Shown here: one piece after another, positions 6,109 through 10,213 of the stretch | How the letters are laid out: every line of letters starts with the position of its first letter | How positions within the stretch are numbered: position 1 is the first letter of the stretch | From: Rhizobium sp. Q54 | Lineage (GTDB): Bacteria; Pseudomonadota; Alphaproteobacteria; UBA828 | Assembly (NCBI GenBank): GCA_945892755.1 | Contig: CAMDDO010000023.1 | Location: forward strand, 1-39,046 | Length of the DNA stretch: 39,046 nucleotides | Direction: 5' to 3' | Translations under genes and position numbers: made by a program | The notes under the pieces: model-generated | What the model was told of the DNA's origin: nothing | Seen by the model: the letters and a program-made list of their open reading frames with translations, nothing else | Databases searched by the model: none

Positions 6109-6903
6109 CTAAAGAATGCGGCGGAGGGCGTCGAGCGTCGCGTCGGGCGCCTCTTCCATCATGATGTGGCCGACCCCGGGGAGCATCACGACCTCCGCGC
6201 CCGCGATCTTCTTCGACAGCGCGAGCGCGAGCTTTGGTGGAGTCATGATGTCGCGTTCGCCGAGGACGAAGAGGGTCGGGCAGCGGACCGCCGCCGCTGC
6301 CGCCTCGCCGCCCTGATAGTCGTTACAGGCCCGTAGGTCCGCGTTGAGCAGGCCGGGTGCAGCGCGTTCGAGCACGCGGAGGCCGCCGCGCATCATCCAT
6401 AGCCCGGGCACGCGATGGCCGCCGAGCTGCGCGCGCGAGCCATAACCCCAGGCATTGATCAGATCGAGCGCCAGATGCTGGTTGTCGGCCGAGGCCTCGA
6501 GCAACACATTGGCGACCTTGAGCGGCACAGCGCAACCGAGCAGACCGAGAGCGCGGACACGCTCGGGGTGACGACCCGCCGCCTCAAGCGCGATCAGCGA
6601 GCCCATGCTGTGGCCAACCAGCGCGGCAGTGGCGAGACCGGCCGCGTCGATCGCTCGGAACAGCCAATCGGCGAGCGCCGGCACGCTGTCGAGCGCGGGC
6701 CCTTCCGAACGGCCATGGCCCGGGAGATCGAGCGCCAGCACGCTGCCGCCGTGCCAGGCAAAATAGCGCGTCTGCAGCTTCCACACCGTGTGGTCGAAGC
6801 CGGCGCCATGAACGAACAATGTGGTGGGACGCGTGACATCGAACGGCCGGCCGCCGGTCGTCGCATGGACGCGCTTGCCATCGACGCTGAGGATCAAACT
6901 CAT
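6109..6903 (-). CDS. Cytoplasmic alpha/beta hydrolase
   Basis: A 264-residue alpha/beta-hydrolase-fold protein. Motifs are LFVHGAGFDHTVW (oxyanion loop), LALDLPGHGRS, nucleophile S99 in GHSMGS, an acid in LGERDIMTPP, and the catalytic His in GVGHIMMEEAPD. There is no signal peptide. Substrate cannot be assigned; esterases, haloperoxidase-like proteins and lactonases all share this pattern. Its ATG overlaps the TGA of metY by four bases (6900-6903), so translation is probably coupled and the hydrolase is the second gene of the metY transcript. Despite lying next to another hydrolase gene it is a different subfamily and transcribed in the opposite direction. Confidence 0.87.
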   Translation of the reverse strand: MSLILSVDGKRVHATTGGRPFDVTRPTTLFVHGAGFDHTVWKLQTRYFAWHGGSVLALDLPGHGRSEGPALDSVPALADWLFRAIDAAGLATAALVGHSMGSLIALEAAGRHPERVRALGLLGCAVPLKVANVLLEASADNQHLALDLINAWGYGSRAQLGGHRVPGLWMMRGGLRVLERAAPGLLNADLRACNDYQGGEAAAAAVRCPTLFVLGERDIMTPPKLALALSKKIAGAEVVMLPGVGHIMMEEAPDATLDALRRIL

Positions 6904-8195
6904 TTGCGCTGCGATGCCTTGAGCGCGCGTTCGAGATCGTCGGTCAGATCGTCGATGTCCTCGAGCCCGACCGAGAGACGCACCATGTCTTCACCGACAC
7001 CCGCGTTCTTGAGAGCCTCTGCGTCCATTTGCTGATGTGTCGTGCTCGCCGGATGGATGATCAGACTCTTGGCGTCGCCGACATTCGCAAGATGCGAAAA
7101 CAGACCAACCGACTCAATCAGCTTGCGGCCCGCGTCGCGCCCGCCTTTGACGCCGAAGCAGAACACCGCGCCGCAGCCATCCGGCATCAGGCGCCGGGCC
7201 CGCGCGTGATCGGGGTGGCTCGGCAGCTCGGGATAGCCGACCCAGGCGACCGCGTCATGGCCGGCAAGGAATCCAACGATGCGCCGGGTGTTCTCCATGT
7301 GGCGCGCCATGCGGAGCGGTAGGGTCTCGACGCCTTGCAGCAAATAAAACGCGTTCTGCGGCGCCAGGCAGGCGCCGAAATCACGCATGCCCTCGGACCG
7401 CGCGCGCATGATGAAGGCCTGCGGGCCGAACTCATCGGCGAAGTCCAGCCCATGATAGCCGGCATAGGGTTCGGTCAGGGTCGGGAAGCGCCCCGAAGCC
7501 TCCCAATCGAAGGTCCCGCCATCGACCAGCGCGCCGCCGATCGCGACGCCATGGCCACCGAGGAACTTGGTGACCGAATGCATGATCAGGTCGGCGCCGT
7601 GCTCGAACGGACGAAACAGGCAAGGCGTCGGGAACGTGTTGTCGATCAGGACCGGCACGCCGTGCGCATGAGCGATCGCGGCGACCGCCGGTAGATCCAT
7701 GATCTCGAGGCCGGGATTGCCGAGGCTCTCGCCAAAGACAAGGCGTGTCTCGGCTCTGATCGCGCGGCGAAACCCTTCCGTATCGCGCGGATGAACGTAG
7801 CTCGTGGTGATGCCGAAGCGCGGCAGGGTATGGGTCAGCATGTTGTGACTGCCGCCATAGAGCGAGGCCGAGGCGACGATATGCCCGCCCTGCCCCATCA
7901 GCGTCGCGACCGCGAGATGGAGCGCGGCCTGGCCGCTCGCGGTGCAAACCGCACCGACGCCGCCCTCAAGGGCCGCGATGCGTTCTTCCAAAACGGCGAC
8001 GGTCGGGTTCGAGATACGCGAATAGATGTGGCCGCATCGCTCGAGGTTGAAGAGCGACGCGGCGTGCTCCGTGCTTTCAAACACGAACGAGGTGGTCTGA
8101 TAGATCGGCACAGCGCGCGCACCGGTCGCCGGGTCAGGGCGCTGACCCGCATGCAGGGAGAGCGTATCGCGCTTGAGATATTTCGGATCGACCAT
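6900..8195 (-). CDS. metY: O-acetylhomoserine aminocarboxypropyltransferase (sulfhydrylase)
   Basis: A 431-residue PLP enzyme of the Cys/Met metabolism family. It makes homocysteine (or methionine) from O-acetylhomoserine and sulfide (or methanethiol). Identification rests on [20 protein letters not shown] at the N-terminus, [22 protein letters not shown], and the PLP lysine K210 in [29 protein letters not shown] lies at the C-terminus. The family length (about 430) separates MetY from the shorter MetB/MetC/MetZ enzymes. The ATG at 8195 is chosen; a TTG at 8213 is also open but has no better ribosome site. It is followed by a four-base overlap with the alpha/beta hydrolase. A sigma-70-like promoter leaves a leader too short for a SAM riboswitch. 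Confidence 0.92.
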
Positions 8196-8221
8196 GATAC
8201 CCCGCGTGTCCAACGCGCGGC

Positions 8222-8251: not shown

Positions 8252-8283
8252 TTGAATCGGGAGGCGGCCCTTGGATAGACGAA

Positions 8284-8312
8284 GGCCCGGCGTGGTCAAG
8301 CCACGCCGGGCC
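8284..8312 (-). terminator. Strong GC hairpin, probable terminator of the small peptide gene
   Basis: A perfect 12-bp stem (8284-8295 with 8301-8312) with a five-base loop TCAAG. It lies 100 bases downstream of the small exported peptide gene and upstream of the metY promoter. On the minus strand it is followed by TTCGTCTATCC, only a weak T tract, so it could alternatively be a REP-like element. Placed here it would insulate metY from transcription coming from the right. Confidence 0.55.
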
Positions 8313-8411
8313 CTCGAGACAAGCTAGCCTGAACGGACCGGGCACCGTGGCTGCGTCCTAAGCCCCGGCGCCGGCCAGCCTTGGGCGGAGCCCAAAAAAC
8401 TGAAGAGAGGC

Positions 8412-8567
8412 TTACTCGCCCTTCGCGTGCTTCATGCACTCTTCCTTCTTCGCCGCGTCGGTCTCGGCTTCGCACTTCTTCATGGCGTCTTCGCTGGCAT
8501 AGACCGCGCTTGTGCCGAGCACGCCGGCGGCAACCAGAAGAGCAAGGGCGAGAGCAATCTTGCGCAT
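8412..8567 (-). CDS. Tiny exported peptide with two cysteines, probable ECF target
   Basis: A 51-codon gene. Residues 1-24 are a textbook signal peptide (MRKIALALAL start, cleavage after VYA). The predicted mature chain is only 27 residues, strongly charged (Lys/Glu-rich), with cysteines 12 positions apart (C32 and C44 of the precursor), which could form one disulfide. I do not recognise a family; a loose resemblance to PsiF-type small proteins is not strong enough to name it. The start is well set: GGAG lies eight bases before the ATG at 8567. Longer open frames through this region add an implausible leader. It is divergent from the ECF sigma gene, and its upstream region carries the same promoter-like motif as that gene, so it may be under the sigma factor's control. 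Confidence 0.78.
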   Translation of the reverse strand: MRKIALALALLVAAGVLGTSAVYASEDAMKKCEAETDAAKKEECMKHAKGE

Positions 8568-8596
8568 GTTGGATTCTCCGATGATTTCACAAATGT

Positions 8597-8614
8597 CTTG
8601 GCCATTTGGCCAAG
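8597..8614. promoter_or_regulatory. 18-bp perfect palindrome in leader of the small peptide gene
   Basis: CTTGGCCA, two bases, TGGCCAAG: eight-base arms in perfect inverted symmetry. It lies between the predicted ECF promoter and the ATG of the small exported peptide gene. It looks like a dimeric operator site. As RNA it could fold only into a short hairpin with a four-base loop. Confidence 0.4.
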
Positions 8615-8641
8615 CCGGCCACCGGACTCGGCAGCCAGAAC

Positions 8642-8669
8642 GATAACGGCCCCGCAATCGCTTTATTCC
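8642..8669 (-). promoter_or_regulatory. Putative ECF-type promoter of the small peptide gene
   Basis: On the minus strand GGAATAA (8669-8663) is followed by CGTTATC (8648-8642), with 16 bases between GGAAT and CGTT. The layout resembles the GGAA...CGTT promoters of many alphaproteobacterial ECF sigma factors. A nearly identical motif precedes the ECF sigma gene itself. Transcription would begin near 8636, leaving a leader of about 70 bases. Confidence 0.55.
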
Positions 8670-8796
8670 ATCAACCACAAAAGAAACGGCCGGCCGTCGC
8701 GTTGCCGCGTGCCATGAAATCGCTAGAATCACATGCCATAAGTCGGACCGGGTTAGAGTCTCTGCCCGGCGGCCTGAAGCACTCGCGAGGCCGTTT

Positions 8797-8825
8797 GGAA
8801 TAACCAGGCGAGGCCAGACGTTATA
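8797..8825 (+). promoter_or_regulatory. Putative autoregulatory ECF-type promoter
   Basis: GGAATAA (8797-8803) and CGTTATA (8819-8825), with 17 bases between GGAAT and CGTT. It directly precedes the sigma gene. The -10-like element ends four bases before the ATG at 8829, so the transcript would be leaderless or nearly so. No well-placed ribosome site exists there (GAGG is about 16 bases away), which fits. Confidence 0.55.
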
Positions 8826-8828
8826 CCC

Positions 8829-9377
8829 ATGAAACGTTGGAATTCGGCATCCGAGGCCGGCACGACCTTCGTCAGTCAAGGCATCGAAGCTTTATTGCCA
8901 AGGCTTAGGCGCTTTGCGCGCGGGCTGACCGGCAACGTCGCCGATGCCGACGATATCGTCCAGTCGGCTTGCGAGAAGGCGCTGGGCAGCGCGTCTCAGT
9001 GGGCGAACGGAACGCGGCTTGATAGCTGGCTCTACCGTATTATCCATACGGTGTGGCTGGACGAGTTGAGGCGGCGCCGGCATCGCAACGGCACAGGCCT
9101 CGACGAGGCGGTCGAAGAACCTGGCGGCGACGTCGTGGCTCACGTCGAGGCACGGCTCAGACTCGAGGAGGTACGCAGGCTGATGGCGGAGCTGCCGAAT
9201 GAGCAGCGGGCGGTGATGCTCCTGGTCTGCGTCGAGGGCCTTGGCTATCGCGATGCGGCCGAGGTGCTTAGTGTGCCGATCGGCACGGTGATGAGCCGTC
9301 TCGCGCGGGGGCGCGCGGCATTGCTGACCCGTTTGGGCGAGGCTCCACGACGAGTGGCGGACGGAAGACGCGGATAA
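8829..9377 (+). CDS. ECF-family RNA polymerase sigma factor
   Basis: A 182-residue sigma-70-family factor with only regions 2 and 4. Region 2 is seen in LLPRLRRFARGLTGNVADADDIVQSACEKAL and WLYRIIHTVWLDELRRRR (about residues 20-85). Region 4 is seen in AELPNEQRAVMLLVCVEGLGYRDAAEVLSVPIGTVMSRLARGR (about 117-162). It redirects RNA polymerase to GGAA-type promoters, and a candidate promoter of that type sits directly in front of it. The stop TAA overlaps the ATG of the next gene by one base, pairing it with its membrane anti-sigma factor. The family subgroup cannot be set by eye. Confidence 0.93.
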   Translation: MKRWNSASEAGTTFVSQGIEALLPRLRRFARGLTGNVADADDIVQSACEKALGSASQWANGTRLDSWLYRIIHTVWLDELRRRRHRNGTGLDEAVEEPGGDVVAHVEARLRLEEVRRLMAELPNEQRAVMLLVCVEGLGYRDAAEVLSVPIGTVMSRLARGRAALLTRLGEAPRRVADGRRG

Positions 9378-10213
9378 TGGTCGGCTTCGACGACAAGACT
9401 CTCGGTGCCTATGTCGATGGCGAGCTGTCGGTCGACGAAGCGCGTGCGATCGACGCCGCGCTCGGTTCGGACCCGGGCCTGAGAGCACGCATTGCGGCGA
9501 TCCGAGAGGCGACCCTCGCGACCCGCGCGGCGTTCGCCTTGGTCGAGCGCGAAGCGGTGCCGGAACGACTGATCGCGGCGGTGCGGCGGCACCCGCCACG
9601 TCGCCGAGCCGTGGCCTTGCCCAAGCTTGACCTTGCCCATTTGCGCGACCGACGCGTCATGGCGCCAGTCGCGGCCGCCGCCGCGCTGCTGATCGCGGCT
9701 GTGATTGGTGTGTTCGCATCGGGCCTAACCGACTCGTCCGCCCCGGATCAAGTAGCCTATGAAGATTCCTGGCTCGATCAGGTCAAACGCTCCTATGAAG
9801 GCTATGCCAAGGTCGACCATGCCGAGACGCAGACGCGTGTCGACGTCGATACGCTGGGCTCCGGTGGCGGTGAACAACTGGGCGCTTGGTTCGGCGAACA
9901 TTTGGACCGGCAGCTCGACGTGCCCGACCTGTCGACCCATGGGCTCCTGCTCAAGGGCGGCCGCCTGCTGATCGTCGAAGGTAGACCTTCGGCGCAAATT
10001 CTCTACGTCACCGAAAGCGGCTCACCGGTCGCGCTCTCGGTCGTGCCGTCGATCGGGCGGGATCAGGTTATTTCGGCTCAGGGCGGCGAAGACGCGAATT
10101 TGATTTATTGGCGCGCCCGCAATTACGGCTACGCGTTGATCGGCGATCTCACCTTGGAGACCATGAAGGAACTCGCGGACGAGATTGCGCCGCGGCAGAG
10201 CCCGGCGACATAG
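9377..10213 (+). CDS. Membrane-anchored anti-sigma factor
   Basis: A 278-residue protein. The N-terminal cytoplasmic part has the anti-sigma opening LGAYVDGELSVDEARAIDAALG (about residues 9-30), as in RsiW/ChrR-like domains, but has no zinc-binding His-Cys-Cys set. A basic stretch is followed by a single membrane helix (about 94-117). The remaining 160 residues should be periplasmic and contain no motif I recognise. It overlaps the sigma gene by one base (TAATG), the usual arrangement for a sigma/anti-sigma pair. By analogy it holds the sigma factor inactive until an envelope signal releases it. The signal is unknown. The gene ends nine bases from the convergent hyuB-type gene. Confidence 0.86.
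   Translation: MVGFDDKTLGAYVDGELSVDEARAIDAALGSDPGLRARIAAIREATLATRAAFALVEREAVPERLIAAVRRHPPRRRAVALPKLDLAHLRDRRVMAPVAAAAALLIAAVIGVFASGLTDSSAPDQVAYEDSWLDQVKRSYEGYAKVDHAETQTRVDVDTLGSGGGEQLGAWFGEHLDRQLDVPDLSTHGLLLKGGRLLIVEGRPSAQILYVTESGSPVALSVVPSIGRDQVISAQGGEDANLIYWRARNYGYALIGDLTLETMKELADEIAPRQSPAT

Follow-up and report, generated by a model that had tools for sequence, protein, structure and literature searches.

A putative ECF26-like sigma factor switch facing a gene for a 51-residue exported peptide across matched promoter motifs

What does an ECF sigma factor control when its gene diverges from that of a tiny exported peptide and both genes are preceded by the same promoter-like motif? The question is raised by a locus on contig CAMDDO010000023.1 of Rhizobium sp. 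Q54 (assembly GCA_945892755.1), of which we analysed a stretch of 39,046 nucleotides, referred to as the window throughout. An earlier note on this DNA had called genes for a sigma factor, an anti-sigma factor and a divergent peptide, and had proposed that the sigma factor controls both itself and the peptide. Checked against the sequence, the three gene calls and their coordinates were correct (Table 1). The sigma and anti-sigma genes overlap via TAATG, and the intergenic gap of 261 bp between the peptide and sigma genes contains both promoters, one facing each gene.

Table 1. Positions of the genes and of the predicted signals of the locus within the window.
Feature	Position	Strand	Evidence or detail
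ECF26-like sigma factor, 182 aa	8829..9377	+	Pfam Sigma70_r2 and r4, NCBIfam PRK12511
Membrane anti-sigma factor, 278 aa	9377..10213	+	NCBIfam antisigma, weak zf-HC2, alignment of relatives
Exported peptide, 51 aa, MRKIALALALLVAAGVLGTSAVYASEDAMKKCEAETDAAKKEECMKHAKGE	8412..8567	-	ORF, relatives, codon statistics
Peptide-gene ribosome-binding site GGAG	8576..8579	-	Sequence
Peptide promoter GGAATAA-N14-CGTTAT	8643..8669	-	-35 at 8663-8669, -10 at 8643-8648
Sigma promoter GGAATAA-N15-CGTTAT	8797..8824	+	-35 at 8797-8803, -10 at 8819-8824
16-bp hairpin 3' of the peptide gene, probable transcript end	8280..8316	-	Fold z -4.28

GGAATAA-N14/15-CGTTAT matches exactly twice in the window, whereas 0.00 matches were expected from 100 shuffles, and the looser GGAAT-N15-18-CGTTA returned the same two sites only (0.04 expected), confirming the earlier observation of two matched motifs, one per gene. 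The earlier note had also suggested counting the motif genome-wide, and we searched the genome for a regulon by pattern matching. Across the whole 3.27-Mb genome GGAAT-N15-19-CGTTA occurs at five sites, both locus promoters included, and the full motif is near-unique: with at most one mismatch in its 13 fixed bases it was found at four sites, comprising the two locus promoters and two others. At the same tolerance, the three genomes of the genus pooled contain 10 sites, six of them expected at the locus and four elsewhere. The loose form GGAATA-N14-17-CGTT yielded 10 sites in the genome versus six for a reversed control, which is no clear enrichment, and these sites lie mostly within genes or at gene ends. 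Only the full motif is therefore discriminating, and it is on the full motif that the claim rests. The two additional one-mismatch sites of the window's own genome (G000:C12:31975-32001, L191, and G000:C11:23554-23581, L186) both carry CGTTGT; the former is located 94 bases ahead of an ORF resembling adenylosuccinate lyase, and no counterpart of either site was found in the two other genomes of the genus, G011 and G012.

Comparison with related genomes, likewise suggested earlier, showed that G011 and G012 retain the sigma, anti-sigma and divergent peptide genes as well as both promoters. Identity to the window is 68% (G011) and 52% (G012) for the anti-sigma factor, and 88% (G011) and 71% (G012) for the peptide. 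In the alignment of the three gaps, the two halves of either promoter and the ribosome-binding site of the peptide gene form conserved blocks between diverged spacers, and GGATnCTCC around the ribosome-binding site is identical in the three genomes. The spacer length is constant in the genus (15 for the sigma promoter and 14 for the peptide promoter), and the sole deviating promoter half is the -10 element of the G011 peptide promoter, which reads TGTTAT, not CGTTAT. Among 18 other genomes of the family, several of which are incomplete, the search found no anti-sigma match and no full-length peptide. The G011 contig is also listed as a Lake Baikal alphaproteobacterial MAG.

The type of promoter fits the probable type of the sigma factor. 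The protein contains sigma-70 regions 2 and 4 only (Pfam PF04542 and PF08281), which is the ECF architecture, and shares 50% identity and the best NCBIfam model (PRK12511) with Sinorhizobium meliloti RpoE6, a relationship read from identity and best model. RpoE6 is classed as ECF26, a group with RsiW-like membrane anti-sigma factors and the promoter consensus GGAATA / GT (PMC6180224); for sulfite-oxidase systems the promoter has been given as GGAAT / CGTC (PMC6527743). The locus shows the same combination, namely GGAATA / (C)GT promoters and a downstream membrane anti-sigma factor with an N-terminal anti-sigma domain, one transmembrane segment at about residues 97-118 as read from the sequence, and an RsiW-like periplasmic C-terminal domain. 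The anti-sigma factor matches the NCBIfam antisigma model at 9.9e-11, which is below that model's cut-off, and Pfam zf-HC2 weakly; its structure model is of low confidence (mean pLDDT 45). We refer to the sigma factor as ECF26-like, a label given by similarity and not by the ECF26 group's own models.

A motif of this kind might also be read by a different sigma factor. The peptide gene would then merely share the promoter type and be transcribed by another ECF sigma factor, for example the general stress factor EcfG (GGAAC/CGTT), with its linkage to the present pair being incidental. ECF26 and ECF15 promoters are indeed alike, and cross-regulation has been reported in S. meliloti (PMC6180224). 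However, the motif has the ECF26 form GGAATA and not GGAAC, both promoters are conserved jointly, and other lineages show the divergent layout too, so that we regard this explanation as quite unlikely.

Transcript starts can be predicted from a described relative. The mapped start of S. meliloti SMa0142 lies 12 bases past the C of CGTT, as read from the printed sequence (PMC6180224), and this distance applied here places the sigma start at about 8829-8833, at the ATG (8829). The sigma mRNA is thus possibly leaderless, and the sigma ATG is found at the same distance from the promoter in all three genomes of the genus. At two related loci (L064 on G064:C7 and L069 in G244) the apparent sigma ATG overlaps the -10 motif (CGTTATG), so that in these cases either the sigma gene starts elsewhere or another promoter is used. 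The peptide mRNA is predicted to start near 8636 and probably ends at the 3' hairpin, which is absent from the listing of a simple terminator scan. A palindrome, CTTGGCC-AAAT-GGCCAAG, is present at 8597-8614, between the predicted peptide transcription start and the ribosome-binding site, and might act as an operator or, in the RNA, as a stem-loop; G011 retains TTGGC-N6-GCCAA, and in G012 the palindrome is absent.

The predicted peptide transcript is about 355 nt long with long untranslated regions, and together with the strong 3' fold this would fit a small RNA as the functional product of the locus, the ORF being of minor importance. That reading is highly improbable given that the protein is conserved, that substitutions fall mainly on third codon positions and that a signal peptide and a ribosome-binding site are present. 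Between G000 and G011, the peptide ORF differs by 2/3/12 substitutions at the three codon positions, with nine synonymous and six non-synonymous codon changes on 34 and 119 sites, respectively, which indicates that the ORF is coding and that selection acts on the peptide sequence.

The peptide consists of a signal peptide followed by a Lys/Glu-rich mature part with a C-x11-C pattern. In a single-sequence AlphaFold2 model, the mature peptide forms a helical hairpin (helices 19-34 and 38-48; block pLDDT 81-86 over residues 31-50) with C32 and C44, which may form a disulfide, on opposite arms. Pfam contains no family for the 51-residue peptide, and a search of plasmids gave no match. Two described types of small exported peptide were considered and rejected: the methionine-rich MXKDX peptides (BcrX/MrpX), as the NCBIfam model TIGR02953 scored 21.1 bits against a cut-off of 41 and there is no MxKDx repeat, and the bufferin-type metallophores (BufA), as the window peptide had no NCBIfam bufferin match and a relative (L011) scored 19.1 bits against a cut-off of 60.

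To place the locus in a wider context, we gathered anti-sigma relatives from 385 genomes of the class and from genomes of named species. GGAATA-N14-17-CGT[TC] is present at most 100 bp upstream of the sigma gene in 24 of 31 non-redundant loci with a close sigma factor (0 in shuffles), compared with one of 60 more distant loci. A second, reverse-facing motif was found at six of the 31 loci (0.14 expected), and each of the six has a gene for a small exported two-cysteine protein on that side: the window and G012 encode the C-x11-C peptide, and G244, G332, G386 and G218 a protein of 79-82 aa. These six loci span four taxonomic families and are not all independent. G011 encodes the C-x11-C peptide as well, with the weaker -10. 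Homology between the 51-residue peptide and the 79-82 aa family was considered but could not be demonstrated, the profile comparison aligning the signal peptide only. This second family is broad, and its members are mostly not near a sigma factor. A broad family of exported, mostly two-cysteine helical proteins of about 75-90 aa (L199-L225) exists across Alphaproteobacteria, mostly unlinked to sigma factors; three members that were scanned had no Pfam or NCBIfam assignment above cut-off. At other loci the divergent slot holds different exported proteins, for example TPR or EF-hand proteins or the S8 protease beside RpoE6, and at many no recognised protein. Three of the more distant ECF/anti-sigma loci (L117, L134 and L136, from Bosea, Kaistia and Hyphomicrobiales) have in common a divergent gene for an exported protein that is about 190 aa long and glycine-rich at its N-terminus.

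The earlier note had left open whether the peptide is an effector or part of the signalling loop, and the distribution of its relatives bears on this choice. As a regulatory part, the sigma-controlled and exported peptide would bind the periplasmic domain of the anti-sigma factor, or its protease, and close a feedback loop. The strict co-occurrence of peptide and sigma/anti-sigma pair within the family would fit such a loop, as would the local, nearly two-promoter regulon; moreover, the periplasmic protein CaBP of Caulobacter has been proposed to feed back on an ECF sigma gene, sigV (PMC13171946), and a control role has been suggested for SMc01418 beside RpoE1 (PMC3511301). However, related sigma/anti-sigma pairs have unrelated or no recognised small proteins in the divergent slot, and relatives of the peptide in G064, G073 and G324 occur without a linked sigma factor and without the motif; G073 and G324 have no anti-sigma match in either genome, and in G064 the sigma factor and the peptide relative are on different contigs. 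Because lineages differ in their divergent protein and relatives of the peptide lack a linked sigma factor, we regard the divergent gene as an output that the switch has recruited and not as one of its indispensable parts, and the signalling role as unlikely and less likely than the effector role.

Accordingly worded as a model, the explanation that we favour with moderate confidence is an ECF26-like switch for envelope stress whose regulon is local and very small, the sigma factor activating its own gene and that of a periplasmic effector peptide. At rest, the sigma factor would be held by the membrane anti-sigma factor, which an extracytoplasmic stimulus would inactivate, probably via regulated proteolysis. 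The freed sigma factor would transcribe its own operon and, divergently, the peptide gene, each from its GGAATAA promoter (Table 1). The exported peptide, probably a two-cysteine helical hairpin, would act in the periplasm by scavenging or buffering reactive species or by binding stressed envelope components. Sequence comparison supports this model through the two motifs, their conservation, the linkage within the genus, and the recurrence of the sigma promoter together with a divergent small exported protein. The earlier proposal that the sigma factor controls both itself and the peptide thereby gains support, the ECF26-type promoter being present at both genes, kept in the genus and recurring at related sigma factors across the class; the effector option is supported too, and the signalling option only weakly.

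The earlier statement that no system of this form had been described was not borne out. The layout with matched divergent promoters is shared by RpoE6/SMa0142 of S. meliloti (ECF26) and by BcrS/BcrX of Brucella (ECF16), and in both systems the promoters are supported by RACE or expression data (PMC6180224; PMC8315932). As in the window, rpoE6 precedes the anti-sigma gene ecfR6, and the divergent exported SMa0142 has its own promoter, GGAATAG-N14-CGTTCT; SMa0142 is activated upon RpoE6 overexpression, and the strongest RpoE6 targets are local (PMC6180224). In contrast to the window, SMa0142 is an S8 serine protease and not a peptide, RpoE6 has several further targets, and the GGAATAA motif mapped for the operon is located within rpoE6, ahead of ecfR6. 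Brucella melitensis BcrS-AbcS with BcrX and Azospira SigF-MrpX (ECF16; PMC8315932) likewise have matched divergent promoters in one gap and an adjacent, sigma-activated small exported peptide, proposed to be a sacrificial HOCl sink, but their promoter is GTAAC/CGAA, their anti-sigma factor has six helices, and their peptide gene, which encodes a methionine-rich MXKDX type, shares an operon with genes for methionine sulfoxide reductase. S. meliloti RpoE1 (ECF26; PMC3511301) also activates a secreted-protein gene beside its own, SMc01418, from a GGAATAA promoter, although in the same operon and on the same strand, with a larger lipoprotein_15-type product and in response to sulfite. The 79-82 aa proteins described above share the divergent slot, the motif and the small exported two-cysteine helical character, but are longer and differ in cysteine spacing, and Caulobacter SigV with CaBP (PMC13171946) is a looser parallel. 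By analogy with BcrX/MrpX, a role of the peptide as scavenger or buffer is plausible, and the analogous RpoE1/RpoE4 (PMC3511301) make sulfite or some other thiol-reactive agent a possible stimulus.

What is new here is the peptide family and the repeated occurrence of small two-cysteine exported proteins beside ECF26-like switches. Known ECF26-type outputs are few beyond sulfite-oxidation genes, and as the predicted regulon amounts to about one gene, that of a tiny undescribed exported peptide, the function of the peptide is directly testable. That several lineages have small two-cysteine exported proteins in the slot suggests a way of meeting envelope stress which parallels that of the methionine-rich ECF16 peptides. 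More tentatively, and as a generalisation that we ourselves hold doubtful, ECF26-like switches might repeatedly have recruited small, helical, exported proteins with two cysteines, drawn from two or more sequence families, as their dedicated and nearly sole output. These would form a general alphaproteobacterial module of envelope defence or sensing by cysteine peptides, with sulfite or other thiol-reactive stress as one example of what it might counter.

Lastly, the peptide gene of the window is neighboured by a PLP-dependent Cys/Met-metabolism gene and an alpha/beta hydrolase gene (6109-8213). The distant relative of the peptide in G064 (L011 / L065, G064:C88) adjoins the same two genes, without sigma factor or motif, so the peptide may have been linked to these genes before it became linked to the sigma factor.
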